Shown one piece after another: positions 1 through 6,499 of a DNA stretch of 60,562 nucleotides. Source of the stretch: Elusimicrobiota bacterium (lineage in GTDB: Bacteria; Elusimicrobiota; Elusimicrobia; UBA1565; UBA9628); contig DAHVWT010000005.1 in assembly GCA_027327915.1 (NCBI GenBank), positions 1-60,562 of the forward strand. Direction: 5' to 3'. Below the pieces are notes generated by a model, which saw only the letters and a program-made list of their open reading frames with translations, was not told the origin of the DNA and searched no databases. Each line of letters begins with the position of its first letter. The stretch's first letter is position 1. Both the position numbers and the translations under genes were made by a program.

Positions 1-141
1 TGCCGCCGCGGCCTTGACCCCGCCGGCGATTCTCGAGAACCAGCCGCCGCCGGCCCTTTTTTTCTTGCGGCGCTTCGCGTTGGAACCGCCCCGCGACCAT
101 TGATCCTTCAGCTTATACGAAGGAACCTCTTCCAATTCCAT
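1..141 (-). CDS. N-terminal fragment of a CDS running off the left edge (basic, Lys/Arg-rich N-terminus MELEEVPSYKLKDQWSRGGSNAKRRKKKRAGGG...)
   Basis: ATG at 141-139 on the minus strand, open for 47 codons to the window edge, 24 nt after the preceding minus-strand stop. Absent from the ORF track because no stop lies in the window. Confidence 0.55.
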   Translation of the reverse strand, partial: MELEEVPSYKLKDQWSRGGSNAKRRKKKRAGGGWFSRIAGGVKAAAA

Positions 142-165: not shown

Positions 166-1749
166 TCACGGGGTCGGCCCACCACCGCTGCCCCCCATCA
201 AATTGCTGATGGGGCTCGGATTGGTGCCTATTGACGACTGCGGGAAGATATCCGGGCAACTGCCCCGAGCGGGGCACGTGGATTGCGTCGGCAAAAACAT
301 CGCCGCTATCGCGCCGGCGGCTCCAGCGATAAGCGCCGCGGTCGTGGAGGAGGCCCCGCCCTTGACCCAACTTGCTTTAAGTCTCGCAGTACCGGCTGGA
401 GTAGGCTTAGCATCCTTCAGGATGGATGACCTCGCCTTTGCGGCCGCGATGGCGATCGTGAAGCCGCTAAAGATAAACAGGGCGCCCTGGAGCGGCTGGC
501 CGTAATGTAATCCCGACTGCAAGCCGGCGCCGATATCGGCACCGATGCCCATGATGACTACTCCAAGAACCGCGGCCGCTAACAGCGCCATGCGCGCCGT
601 GACGGCCGTCTCCGGCGTCGGGACCTTCATCAACTTTCGGGCATACAATATCAGACCCAGGGCGCCGGCGATCATGCCCGCCGCCATCTCGATGGCGGTC
701 TGGTACGGACTGGCGGCAGTGGGGTTGTTCGCGGGAGGAACGACGGCCTCTCCGCCCCGCCAGGGATTCGTGTTGGAGAAGCTGGGATTCGAGCTGCCCC
801 CGCTTGAAGGGGATCCGGCGCTCGGGCCGCCACCGCCCGAGCCGCCGCCCGTGAGCTGAGTCCCCCCTCCTCCGCCGGCGGCGCCGTCATAGGTCGTGCC
901 GGCACCCTGGGAGGAGGTCCCGCCCCGGTTCTCGCTCAACTCGTGCATCCCCTGCTGGTAGGCGAGAGCGCCGCCGTCGCCGCCGCCCACGCCTCCGCCG
1001 AAGGCCCTCATGCCGCCCGCGCCCGCGGCGCCGGCGGGACTCATGGCGCCGGCCTGGTTTCCAAGCACCGCCTGGGCGCCGACGCCGCCTCCCTGGCCGG
1101 AGGCGGCGGGCGCCGCGACCGCCGTGCCTCCGGGCGACGCCGACGACTGCGGCGCCCCCGCGCCCCCCACGGACTTCGCGCCGCCGGACATAGAGGGGAT
1201 GAAGCTCGCATTGGCGGACGCGGCGTCCGCCAAGGAGCCCGCCGAGGCGGCGCTGGCCTGAGCCCCCGGAGACAGATACCCCGCCGGGAGCGCGGCGGGC
1301 TTGGCGGCCGCGACGGCGTTGGCTTGCTGGAATTCGGCGAGCGAACCCTGATTCGCCCCCGCGCCCGCAACTCCGGCCCCGCCCCCCGTCGCGGGGGCCT
1401 GAGCGGCCTGGCTCTGGGTCCGTTGTGGAAAAAGGGAAGAGTAGCTGTTGGCCGTCCCCAAGGATTGCGGCCCGAACATCTTATAGGTGGCGACGCCGAC
1501 GCCTCCGGCGACCGCGGTTCCCGCCGCGATCAAGCCGACGAGACCCGCCTTGGTCGCGAGAAGCCCGCCGCCCAGCCCCGCGCCAAGCCCCCCTCCGCCA
1601 AGAGCGCCTTCGCCCGCGATGGTTCCGGCCGCCGCCGCGCCGCTTCCGCCGCCGCCCAGCCCCAATAACGACAGCAGGCTCGACCATAGACCCTTGCCGG
1701 ACTCGGCAGGCTCGCCGCCTGAATTTGAATCCACCGGTTCTTCAGCCAT
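166..1749 (-). CDS. Gly/Ala/Ser-rich low-complexity membrane protein with several hydrophobic segments
   Basis: 527-aa ORF; long GGGGSGG-type tracts, N-terminal hydrophobic segment and C-terminal hydrophobic helices; collinear with neighbours. Confidence 0.7.
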   Translation of the reverse strand: MAEEPVDSNSGGEPAESGKGLWSSLLSLLGLGGGGSGAAAAGTIAGEGALGGGGLGAGLGGGLLATKAGLVGLIAAGTAVAGGVGVATYKMFGPQSLGTANSYSSLFPQRTQSQAAQAPATGGGAGVAGAGANQGSLAEFQQANAVAAAKPAALPAGYLSPGAQASAASAGSLADAASANASFIPSMSGGAKSVGGAGAPQSSASPGGTAVAAPAASGQGGGVGAQAVLGNQAGAMSPAGAAGAGGMRAFGGGVGGGDGGALAYQQGMHELSENRGGTSSQGAGTTYDGAAGGGGGTQLTGGGSGGGGPSAGSPSSGGSSNPSFSNTNPWRGGEAVVPPANNPTAASPYQTAIEMAAGMIAGALGLILYARKLMKVPTPETAVTARMALLAAAVLGVVIMGIGADIGAGLQSGLHYGQPLQGALFIFSGFTIAIAAAKARSSILKDAKPTPAGTARLKASWVKGGASSTTAALIAGAAGAIAAMFLPTQSTCPARGSCPDIFPQSSIGTNPSPISNLMGGSGGGPTP

Positions 1750-1790: not shown

Positions 1791-2840
1791 TTACATCATC
1801 CCCATACCGTAGCCGCCGCCGTAGCCTCCGGAGCCCTGCATCATCGAGCCCATCATCATGGGCATCATCTGCATGGCCATCATGGGCATCATCATCGATG
1901 CCGACCCGCCGGTCGCCGCCATCATAAGCCCCATCGCCCCCACCATCATGAGCATCATGAGCATCTCCTGCTGCTTGCTGGGACCGGCGGAGGAAGGAAC
2001 GGGCGGCATCGGCCCGCCGTTGACCTTCGACGACTCCGGGGCGGGAGCGGCCAGGCCCATGAGGCCCTGGGTGTCGAAGCCCGCTCCGCCGCCGCCGGAC
2101 GGGATCGCGACGCCGCCGGTCGCATTGCCGTCAAAGCCCGCTCCGCTGACGGCCTTCTGCGCGGCGCTCGCCGTCATGCCGTTGGAGACCGCGCCGCTGC
2201 CGGCGGCGGCCTGCAGCTGCGAGAGCGCGCCGCCGCTTTTGGGGGAGAGAGCCGCCAGGTCCTGCCCCAGGCCCTGCGCCGCCGACACCCCGGGCCGGGC
2301 ATTGACCGCGCCGAAGGCCCCGAGACCCGAGCCGCCCGTGAAAGAGCCGGCGGAAGAGCCACCGGAACCGGCGCCTCCCGTGATCGGGGCGAATGCGGCG
2401 GAGGGAATCGAGTAGGACGCCGCGGGAGCGGAGGCCGAGGACGCCGCCCCGGCACCGCCGGGACGGCGGCTGATGGCGCCCAAGGCGTCGGCCAAATTCC
2501 GCGGGGCGGTCGACGCGGAGGCGTTTCCGGCGCCGGGAGCCTGATAGAGCATGGCCCCCGGATCGGCCATGCCGCCCGAGCCGGCGCCGGCCGCGCCTGT
2601 CCCGATCGCGCTCCCGGGGGCCGATGCGCCCACGGCCGAGGCGTCGAGCACATCGAGGCTCTGGTCGAGAGGCTTCAAGGCCCCCGCGTCGAGAAGGAAT
2701 TGATTGGAGCCGGAAGCCGAACCCCCGCCGCCCAACGCCGGGAAAAAAGTCCAAGCGCCCATCAATAGAAAAACGAGCAACACCACCCACCAATATTTCT
2801 TGAAGGGGTCCGAACCTTTTCTCGTGATGGTGAGCGCCAT
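1791..2840 (-). CDS. Single-TM, Gly/Ala-rich protein with strongly Met-rich C-terminus
   Basis: 349-aa ORF; N-terminal TM (KKYWWVVLLVFLLMGAWTFF); last 58 residues contain 24 Met and end GGYGGGYGMGMM. Confidence 0.7.
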   Translation of the reverse strand: MALTITRKGSDPFKKYWWVVLLVFLLMGAWTFFPALGGGGSASGSNQFLLDAGALKPLDQSLDVLDASAVGASAPGSAIGTGAAGAGSGGMADPGAMLYQAPGAGNASASTAPRNLADALGAISRRPGGAGAASSASAPAASYSIPSAAFAPITGGAGSGGSSAGSFTGGSGLGAFGAVNARPGVSAAQGLGQDLAALSPKSGGALSQLQAAAGSGAVSNGMTASAAQKAVSGAGFDGNATGGVAIPSGGGGAGFDTQGLMGLAAPAPESSKVNGGPMPPVPSSAGPSKQQEMLMMLMMVGAMGLMMAATGGSASMMMPMMAMQMMPMMMGSMMQGSGGYGGGYGMGMM

Positions 2841-2901: not shown

Positions 2902-4605
2902 TTACCCAGTTTTTACTGGAGCGCCGCCATTGCCGTCGAGTCGAGGCGGCGGCGGGGGGGTCGGCAAAGGCGCGAGCGGGACGGGCAAAGGCTTGGGCGG
3001 CTTGCCGTATTCGGTGAAAATCACGGCAATTTCATCATAATCGAGCTCTTCGCGTCGCACGAGCTCATCCGCGAAGCGCTCCAGGATTGGAAAATGCTCC
3101 TTTAAGAGGGCCTCCACTTCCTTTAGAGAATCCCGCAAGATAGCCTGGGTCGCGGCATTGAGGCGCTCTTTCAAGCTTTCCGAAAGCTGCTCTTTGGGGA
3201 TCAGCGTAAAATCCCCCACCAAGCCGTCCGTGCCCATTCCATACTGCCAGACCATCTTATGCGCGATCTCGACGGCATGGCCGAAATCGGCCGATACGCC
3301 GTCCGTTGTCACGCCGAACTTGAGCTTCTCCGCGGCGTAGCCTCCCAGGGCGACGTTGATGTGGGCGCGGAGGGTCTTGCTATCCGAGGAGAAAAGCTCC
3401 TCGCGGGGAATCGAATGGACGACGCCCAACGTCCCGCCGCGCTCGATAATCGAGGCCTTGAAGACGTCGTTTGTCGGGTGCGTCAAATACAAGACGATGA
3501 GATGCCCCGCCTCGTGATAGGCGGTCATCCGCTTCTCCCCGGGGGTCATGTTGAGGCGATGGGCCAGCCCCAGCTCGATCCGCTCGATCGCGGAGGAGAG
3601 GTCCTTGTAGCCCACGGACTCGCGACGGTCCCGGGTCGCGATCAGGGCCGCTTCCTTAAGGATGTTCTCGATCTCGGCCGGGGTCTTGTAAACCGCCTTG
3701 CGCGCCAAGCGCGCGAGATCGACGCCCGGCTCGACCTTGATCTTCTTCGAGTAATACTCGAAGATTTCCTGGCGCTCGGCAAGATTGGGGCGGCCGATCG
3801 TGATCGTCCGGTCGAAGCGCCCGGGCCTCAGGAGCGCGGGGTCCAGGACTTCCCGCTGGGCGTTCATCGCTCCGATGACGACCACCGGCGCGTCGATGTC
3901 GGTGAGCCCGTCCATCTCGACGAGGAGCTGGTTCAAGGTGCTGTTCGACTCCGAGGAGCCGCCGAAAGCGTCGAAGAAGACGCGCGACTTTCCCACGACC
4001 TCGAGTTCGTCGATGAAGATGATCGCGGCGCCGTAGGCCTGGGCGTATTGCCGCGCCTGCTTGAAGAGCTTGCGCACGCGCGAGGCTCCGACTCCCACGA
4101 AGATCTCGACGAACTCGGATCCCGCCGCGGAGAGAAACGGCACCCCGGCCTCGGTCGCGATCGCCTTGGCGAGCATGGTTTTGCCGCAGCCCGGGGGGCC
4201 GATCATGAGAAGGCCGTGGATGATCTTGCCGCCGACTTTCTTGAGCGCGGCGCGGTCCTTGATGAGCTCGACGACCTCCTGCGCCTCGCGCTTCGCCTCC
4301 GTGAGCCCGATGACGTCGGGAAAGCGCACGCGGACGGATTGGGCGTCGATGCGCGCCTTGCGAAAGCGCGTGAATCCCCCGCCGTATTGGATGAGATAGA
4401 GGAAGGCGACGAAGATGAGGGTCCCGATGATGGTCATGGGCAGCCCCGCCATGTTGATGCCGACGATATAGCGCCTCAGCGCCGGCTCCATGCCCGCCAA
4501 GTACCAAATGGGAAGGGCGATCGTGATCCCGAGGCCCACGACGATCGCGACGGCGAGCCACCACCGCTGCAGGAAGAGCCTGACGCGGCTCCACAGTTTT
4601 TTCAT
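2902..4605 (-). CDS. FtsH-like membrane AAA+ zinc metalloprotease
   Basis: Two N-terminal TM segments, Walker A GPPGCGKT, Walker [20 protein letters not shown] zinc motif. Confidence 0.9.
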
Positions 4606-4610
4606 GGTGA

Positions 4611-5093
4611 TCAGCTCCCGCCTCCCGGCAGCCTGAACAAGATGGGCCTGTCGCGATTCGGCACGTATTTGGTGACCGTCATGGTCGTGTTAAGAGTGTT
4701 GACCTTGAAAAAGAGGATCTTCTCGGAGATGGGAACGGTGAGGGTCACCACGTTCCAGACCTCGGTCGGCTGCACGGTCACCGTCGGCCCGGGATTGGCG
4801 AGGGCAAAAAGGTTCTGGAGTTCGGGGCTTCCCCAGCCGAGATAACCCTGGACCTTGTTTTGGATGTCGGTGAGAAGGGGACCCATGTCGAAACTGGCTT
4901 GGTATTGCGTATTGCGGTGCGACTCCAGCTGCCAGCGGCGCGCGGCGTAATAAGAGGCGATCTCCATGCGCTGGACGAGGATGAGAAGCCCGAAAATTTT
5001 AACAAAAGCGAACATGAAAAATATGAAAAGCGGTATGAGAAGAACGACCTCGGTCGTCGCCTGGCCGCTTCGGCCGCCGTGTCCAACGATCAT
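4611..5093 (-). CDS. TadE-like pseudopilin / pilus-assembly protein
   Basis: Starts MIVGHGGRSGQATTEVVLLIPLFIFFMF (TadE-type GQxxxE plus hydrophobic helix); ATGA overlap with upstream gene stop. Confidence 0.75.
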   Translation of the reverse strand: MIVGHGGRSGQATTEVVLLIPLFIFFMFAFVKIFGLLILVQRMEIASYYAARRWQLESHRNTQYQASFDMGPLLTDIQNKVQGYLGWGSPELQNLFALANPGPTVTVQPTEVWNVVTLTVPISEKILFFKVNTLNTTMTVTKYVPNRDRPILFRLPGGGS

Positions 5094-6484
5094 AGTCCGC
5101 CGGGCATGATATCGCACGGCCGCAGCCGCGTCTGGTATTTGGGGGTCGGATCGGGCCAGACGCTGGCGTAGGGCTCGTTTTCGCCCAACGTCACCTTGGC
5201 GCAGACGGCCGGAGTCTGAAAGGCGACGCCGAAGAAATTCTCCGCCCCCGACCCCCAAGCGATGGCGGAGTCCGTCTTGGGATTGACGATATGCCAGTCG
5301 GTTGCGGAATACCAGCCATGCTGTATCGCCCCCCCTCCGCCGGCGCCCCCCACGACCGCCGGGTCGGCATCCATGAATTGGAACAATCCGCTTCCGAGCC
5401 CGCCGCCGGCCTGCGGGCAGGAGCTCGTGCCGGCCAGGGAGATCGCCCCGTTGTTGCCTCGGATGATGCACATGGGGGCGGGGTCATAGGGTCCCCCGCC
5501 GCATTGGCTGAAAACGCCGGGGGGATCGCCGCCTTGATACGCTCGCGCGAAGCCCGTCACATAATCAAGGCAGTCGGGTTGGAGCGCGTCGGCGAAGCCC
5601 GACGCCTGGCCGCGATCGAACACCAGAGAGGCGCTCTGGGCGTCGGCGGCGTCAGGCCCCTGCCCCGAGGTGTTGAGCCAATAGGATTTCTGGAGGAAAT
5701 GATGGTTTTGGGCCAACCTTTCTAAAACCCCCAACTGGGCGCTCTCGACCTGGCCCAGAAGCGTGTAGACCTTGGCCCAAATGTCGATGAACGTATGCCC
5801 CGGCTGAAGGCAGAGAGGGCTCGCGCCGGCGCCGCCGGAAGTATAAGGCGCGATGCAGGTGTACTCGACGGGCCTGCCGCAAGCCTGGGCCGTCGCGTGA
5901 TTGATGAATTCATGGCAGCTGCCGCCCGGGACGACGCCTTTCGTGTTGAGGATCTGGCTCATGCATTGCCTATCAGAGGGAGGATAGGAGTCCAGTTGAT
6001 CGCCGTCGCCGCCCGGCGGCTCGCCGTCCGAGGTCCCGTTGAATTGGGTGAAGCAAGGAGGATTGGAGTTCTCGTTGCAAAACTCTATTTTCCATTGGGC
6101 CTTGGCCGTATAGGCTTGCTCCGATCCCTGGTTTTCCCAACTCAAGTCGTTGGAATCCATCGGGAAGTCGCCGTTCATGAACATGACGTCCATCATGGAG
6201 GCGGTGGGACAGCCCTCGCCGCGGTTCACTTGCAGAGGCGCGGAGAACTCCTTGAAGATGCGCATGGGAAAAGCGCCGTTGACGTAGGCGGAGCGGTTGA
6301 GGAAGTCGGAGTAGTTGCTCATCTCGATGAACGCCGCCGAGTCGATCGCGAATTGATGCCGGATCTTCTCGCGGGAGAGCTTGGCCGTCTCGTAGATGAG
6401 GTAGATGAAGAGGAAAAGGCTCGGGAAAACGAAAAGGGCGGGTATCAGAAGCTGCCCGCGGGAGGACTTGAGGGAAGATCGCAT
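5090..6484 (-). CDS. TadG-like (Flp pilus assembly) membrane-anchored protein
   Basis: MRSSLKSSRGQLLIPALFVFPSLFLFIYLIYE, then a long Cys-containing extracytoplasmic region; gene order and overlap with TadE-like gene. Confidence 0.65.
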   Translation of the reverse strand: MRSSLKSSRGQLLIPALFVFPSLFLFIYLIYETAKLSREKIRHQFAIDSAAFIEMSNYSDFLNRSAYVNGAFPMRIFKEFSAPLQVNRGEGCPTASMMDVMFMNGDFPMDSNDLSWENQGSEQAYTAKAQWKIEFCNENSNPPCFTQFNGTSDGEPPGGDGDQLDSYPPSDRQCMSQILNTKGVVPGGSCHEFINHATAQACGRPVEYTCIAPYTSGGAGASPLCLQPGHTFIDIWAKVYTLLGQVESAQLGVLERLAQNHHFLQKSYWLNTSGQGPDAADAQSASLVFDRGQASGFADALQPDCLDYVTGFARAYQGGDPPGVFSQCGGGPYDPAPMCIIRGNNGAISLAGTSSCPQAGGGLGSGLFQFMDADPAVVGGAGGGGAIQHGWYSATDWHIVNPKTDSAIAWGSGAENFFGVAFQTPAVCAKVTLGENEPYASVWPDPTPKYQTRLRPCDIMPGGL

Positions 6485-6499
6485 TGAACGCTGGAGCAT

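Follow-up and report, generated by a model that had tools for sequence, protein, structure and literature searches.

METP, an undescribed Elusimicrobiota protein family with a methionine-rich, probably membrane-associated C-terminal tail

Introduction

What does a protein do with a tail in which 24 of the last 58 residues (41%) are methionine? The question is raised by a reading frame on contig C120, the whole of which, 60,562 nucleotides, was analysed and is called the window here. The contig belongs to a 1.99 Mb Elusimicrobiota MAG (G000) that is estimated to be 91% complete. The product, named METP in this work, represents a family not described before, which is spread through a class and accompanied by a conserved partner gene. 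Its tail indicates that membrane segments, too, can be selected for extreme Met density, a property not confined to soluble chaperone and copper sites. As SRP also seems to be missing from the phylum, METP becomes a concrete candidate in a lineage whose membrane-protein handling is unexplained.

The methionine-rich tail

The protein and its tail are laid out as follows.

1791..2840, minus strand: METP, a reading frame of 349 aa, described from the ORF, hydropathy, the family alignment and AF2.
METP, residues ~17-37: N-terminal membrane helix, followed by a Gly/Ala/Ser/Pro-rich linker and the Met-rich C-terminal tail.
1791..1967, minus strand: Met-rich tail, predicted to be helical at residues 288-309 and again at 318-334, then the GGYGGGYGMGMM end.

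The translated C terminus reads ...EMLMMLMMVGAMGLMMAATGGSASMMMPMMAMQMMPMMMGSMMQGSGGYGGGYGMGMM*. A preliminary description of this DNA had counted 24 Met in the last 58 residues, and the translation of the reading frame gives the same number. The location given there, 1791-1970, is right except for one codon too many, as 58 residues and the stop occupy 1791-1967. The density had also been called rare, and it is. It is the highest among the 51 genes picked in the window, where the runner-up has 7 Met in 58 residues, and the 63-residue tail has no second match elsewhere in the 1.99 Mb genome. Against the Met frequency of 2.0% in the picked window genes, the binomial probability of the tail is about 2e-25.

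The same tail, in frame, is carried by METP of two congeners, one 90% identical overall (G191) and the other about 68% identical (L055/G305), and the frame is therefore not an artefact. Close relatives with a frameshifted or absent tail, which the preliminary description had regarded as decisive against it, were not encountered. Third-position G+C is high in the METP reading frame of the congener. Identity to L055 is 85% in the tail and 65% in the body, with dN values of 0.107 and 0.286, respectively. Counting positions with Met in either protein, Met is kept in both at 19 of 23 in the tail and 4 of 13 in the body; a single tail Met has changed to Ile, and the core is without indels. The comparison with G191 has the same direction: identity is 97% in the tail and 87% in the body, dN is 0.026 and 0.075, and Met is kept at 22 of 23 and 6 of 11 positions. 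Constraint within the genus is thus stronger on the tail than on the linker and body. Because it is conserved above the body in both congeners, the tail is not only real and unusual but also selected.

The METP family

METP has no significant match in Pfam, NCBIfam or the PDB. Searches of PDB sequences with the tail and with the family profile found nothing, the Pfam scan of all METP members returned insignificant matches only, and a Foldseek search with the low-confidence METP model gave no match. The literature on Elusimicrobia combined with Met-rich proteins or Tad pili contained nothing relevant to METP. Homologues are present in 45 of the 56 genomes of the order, and the class adds lower-scoring ones in its families f5 and f13. 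METP is thus an undescribed, class-wide family that extends across one order and includes more divergent members of its class.

Complete members from the order share an N-terminal DP[FY]KKYWW motif, or a close variant of it, and a membrane helix, followed by a Gly/Ala/Ser/Pro-rich linker bearing FDG and LK ((N)LK) motifs. Every one of them has a C-terminal hydrophobic segment, whose best 19-residue Kyte-Doolittle mean lies between 1.2 and 2.4. The METP of the window possesses the N-terminal motif and helix, FDG, (N)LK and the C-terminal segment, and has P527 downstream.

Orthologues have between 0 and 13 Met per 19 residues of the C-terminal segment. Genera differ in the Met of this segment but retain its hydrophobicity and its glycines, and in many orthologues Met is replaced by Val, Ile, Leu or Ala with hydrophobicity maintained. 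Among those with high counts are genus g1, g9 and genera of f2; several f2 and f1 genera have 5-13 Met per 19 residues, and runs of up to ten consecutive Met occur in f2. In family f5 the C terminus is shorter and amphipathic and retains several Met, e.g. EEMKNQIKMMIIKMVLQMALGAVFQGM. As a share of M+L+I+V+F, Met makes up 38% of the METP C-terminal segment, 11% of METP's own N-terminal helix and 9% of 350 control hydrophobic segments, an enrichment whose Fisher P value overstates the evidence because the METP sequences are related and the counts are not phylogenetically independent. There is no enrichment relative to the first helix in 10 of 39 members. The extreme density in the window lies at one end of the range that the family covers and is no isolated case.

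Topology and predicted structure

Hydropathy identifies two hydrophobic segments only, and METP contains neither Cys nor His. Summed over 36 members, 121 positive and 64 negative charges precede helix 1. The linker side is acidic, with 58 positive and 127 negative charges after helix 1 and 53 positive and 94 negative before the tail segment, and 93 positive and 64 negative charges follow the tail segment. These flanking charges support a predicted topology with both the N and C termini inside. For METP of genus g1 the topology is taken from the relatives, because almost no charged residue follows its tail segment.

Structure prediction had been proposed as a check on the tail. AF2 does place helices there, at low confidence. 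The model of the whole protein has a mean pLDDT of 47 and a confident helix at residues 17-31 only. The tail modelled alone has the same two helices with a mean pLDDT of 61 (about 50-80 in the helices), and because of this low confidence the helical hairpin is only suggestive. A crude Hessa sum is close to zero for the first tail segment, so that its predicted insertion into the membrane is marginal; the second segment contains two Pro and one Gln. The linker is likely disordered and the tail likely membrane-associated.

P527 and the neighbouring genes

The gene order is TadG-like, TadE-like, FtsH2, METP, P527 and further P527-type genes.

5090..6499, minus strand: TadG-like protein, with an N-terminal membrane helix and a Cys-containing periplasmic part.
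4611..5093, minus strand: TadE-like protein, with one strong membrane helix (Pfam TadE E = 0.0011, under the gathering score).
2902..4605, minus strand: FtsH2, an FtsH-like AAA and M41 zinc protease (Pfam M41 6e-36, AAA 8e-35).
166..1749, minus strand: P527, the next gene, 41 nt past METP, with an N-terminal helix, a low-complexity linker and four C-terminal membrane helices.
1..141, minus strand: start of a P527-type gene, cut by the contig end; its homologue in a congener (L031:9431-10906) is complete and has 491 aa.

The name 'TadG-like' is a reading of a product that has no library match and whose gene adjoins TadE in the loci holding both.

P527 is the closest companion of METP. It follows METP directly in 31 of 32 assessed loci, with a gap of -29 to +52 nt, and family f5 also has the two together, apart from FtsH2. 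P527 has no significant Pfam or NCBIfam family. Across loci it has one N-terminal and usually three or four C-terminal membrane helices, and Met makes up 19% of the C-terminal helices and 7% of the N-terminal helix. The Met contents of METP and of the P527 helices are not correlated across loci (rho = -0.02). Homology between METP and the P527 paralogues was considered and rejected: one gave only a 30-column match around an FDG motif (61% probability) and the others gave none. Tandem P527-type proteins are encoded at L031:6262-12505, L050:10511-13421 and L138:3793-6817; they too have an N-terminal helix, a low-complexity linker and C-terminal membrane helices, the last of which are somewhat Met-rich, and are without a known family.

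FtsH2 is a distinct, divergent paralogue; the canonical FtsH is a separate copy on contig C55. The FtsH_fam score of FtsH2 is under the equivalog cut-off, and HEAGH is present in its translation. Relatives with 53-77% identity are spread over many of the phylum's families, and in several of these families TadG/TadE-like genes precede them. In the order of METP, the TadG-like and TadE-like genes and the FtsH paralogue usually lie upstream of METP. In some relatives (L041:179-4410; L035:154-3247) the TadG-TadE-FtsH2-METP cluster is immediately preceded by genes that, read from their translations, are response-regulator-like and membrane sensor-like.

The preliminary description had connected the tail with the adjacent protease. 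TadE-like and FtsH-like genes do adjoin METP, but a dedicated role with the protease is weakened by several observations. FtsH2 extends to further families and classes of the phylum where METP was not found, it lies elsewhere in the genome in genus g2, and P527 is the tighter partner. Since FtsH2 occurs without METP and is unlinked from it in g2 and f5, METP and P527 constitute the core unit, and the linkage to the protease and Tad genes is a feature of the order. METP as a dedicated FtsH2 adaptor is likewise weakened by the distribution of FtsH2.

Possible roles of the tail

Sequence, conservation, architecture, charge pattern and the linkage of METP with P527 are observed directly; the membrane insertion, topology, docking partner and function of METP we infer from its anatomy and gene linkage. 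The leading reading, tentative and given somewhat less than even weight, is that the tail serves for packing in the membrane, as a Met/Gly segment that holds METP to P527 and its neighbours. METP would belong, as a subunit, to an envelope complex of Elusimicrobiota. The N terminus of METP would lie in the cytoplasm, one helix would run through the inner membrane, and the flexible linker of about 250 residues would occupy the periplasm. The hydrophobic Gly/Met-rich C-terminal segment would re-enter the membrane with its end toward the cytoplasm. There it would present a soft surface for helix packing, on which small Gly and flexible, unbranched Met residues dock other hydrophobic helices, most likely those of the C-terminal membrane bundle of P527. 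In METP's order this METP-P527 unit would also be coupled to the TadG/TadE-like proteins and the FtsH paralogue. The strongest points against packing are the missing co-variation of Met between METP and P527 and the marginal predicted insertion.

The main rival, which we consider unlikely, treats the tail as a holdase, i.e. a hydrophobic-binding surface of low specificity resembling the SRP54 M domain or the Met-rich EMC3 loop. It would capture TadE/TadG-type or P527 helices, which would then go to the FtsH paralogue or to an insertase. Flexible hydrophobic side chains are indeed very dense here, beside TadE/TadG-like and FtsH-like genes, and a Met-rich cytosolic loop is required for EMC insertase activity (PMC10803268). 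On the other hand, the FtsH paralogue is widespread without METP, METP also occurs unlinked from it, and many METP orthologues have few Met.

The domain that Ffh and FtsY have in common, PF00448, finds no match in the genome studied, and in 43 genomes of the family it gives only short P-loop matches of about 25 bits or less. At E <= 1e-20 it is found in none of 257 Elusimicrobiota genomes, with 14 of 14 controls positive; the SRP RNA (RF00169) is found in none of the order's 56 genomes, with 11 of 14 controls positive. That few Elusimicrobia have SRP homologues was remarked in 2021 (PMC7987157). With SRP undetectable in the phylum, some other handling of helices must exist, which favours a holdase. 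METP as a substitute for SRP was nevertheless rejected: the absence of SRP is phylum-wide whereas METP is limited to a class, a distribution too narrow for a general replacement. A broader and quite improbable proposal is that METP is part of an unknown Elusimicrobiota helix-handling or assembly machine, in which a membrane-tethered Met-rich segment, in place of an SRP M domain, would receive P527 and TadE/TadG-like helices for assembly or for quality control by the FtsH paralogue.

The remaining explanations are less likely than the holdase. Compositional drift, only slightly less probable, holds that any hydrophobic residue would serve and that Met accumulated neutrally, e.g. by expansion of ATG runs. 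The strong differences in Met number among genera at stable hydrophobicity, and the ten-Met runs of f2, agree with this. It is difficult to reconcile with the tail Met positions kept within the genus at ~68% overall identity, with the lone Ile change and indel-free core, and with the rarity of more than three Met in hydrophobic segments elsewhere.

Metal binding is doubtful to a greater degree. In proteins like SilE and Ctr1, Cu(I)/Ag(I) is bound at sites made of thioethers only, and periplasmic thioether clusters in METP could act as a sink for such soft metals, which would be an advantage where the habitat is metal-rich or acidic. The dense MxM and MxxM spacing of the tail fits this proposal. 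Some related MAG names (FK5, DBS1-2, YF2) may resemble mine-site codes; a literature search found nothing. Against a sink, METP has no Cys or His, the context of the tail is hydrophobic rather than hydrophilic with burial in the membrane predicted, aliphatic residues replace Met in orthologues, and no metal or copper gene was present among the ten neighbours scanned or seen among the window translations. Of the preliminary suggestion of hydrophobic-substrate or metal binding at the membrane, the first half is thus compatible with a hydrophobic tail on a membrane-anchored protein, and the second half is not borne out. A sink for oxidants, with surface Met quenching reactive oxygen and being recycled by Met sulfoxide reductases, draws on general Met chemistry only and is very improbable given the hydrophobic, probably buried context, the variable Met count and no Msr gene noticed next to METP.

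Comparison with known systems

The preliminary description had compared the tail with the SRP54 M domain and the tail of GroEL; the defining features of both families are missing. Like the METP tail, the M domain of SRP54/Ffh is Met-rich and helical and has hydrophobic-binding character, but METP lacks the NG GTPase domain (PF00448; no Pfam match) and is membrane-anchored. The Gly-Gly-Met tail of GroEL is likewise C-terminal and Gly/Met-rich, and its hydrophobicity and flexibility are thought to matter (PMC11978752). METP, in contrast, has no chaperonin match in Pfam or NCBIfam, and its tail is longer, is predicted to be helical and has a linker and a membrane helix in front of it.

In the EMC3/YidC-Oxa1 insertases a Met-rich loop is found at the membrane beside hydrophobic clients (PMC10803268), and the METP tail is also a Met-rich segment, probably at the membrane. 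METP differs from YidC, Oxa1 and EMC3 in having no multi-helix insertase core (60KD_IMP), only its two hydrophobic segments and no family match. Met motifs of the SilE/Ctr1 type share the repeated MxM/MxxM spacing, but they sit in hydrophilic, often His-containing disordered regions, whereas the METP tail is hydrophobic. The other marks of periplasmic Cu/Ag Met motifs, His or Cys in the protein and metal-resistance genes among the scanned neighbours, are absent as well. Glycine-zipper segments, including the C19orf12-like ones (PF20721), resemble METP in the GG-x-x-GG pattern of the C-terminal segment, and PF20721 gives a weak Pfam match, under significance, in 2 of 26 METP members (best E = 0.012). 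For a segment of that kind, however, the Met density of METP is atypical.
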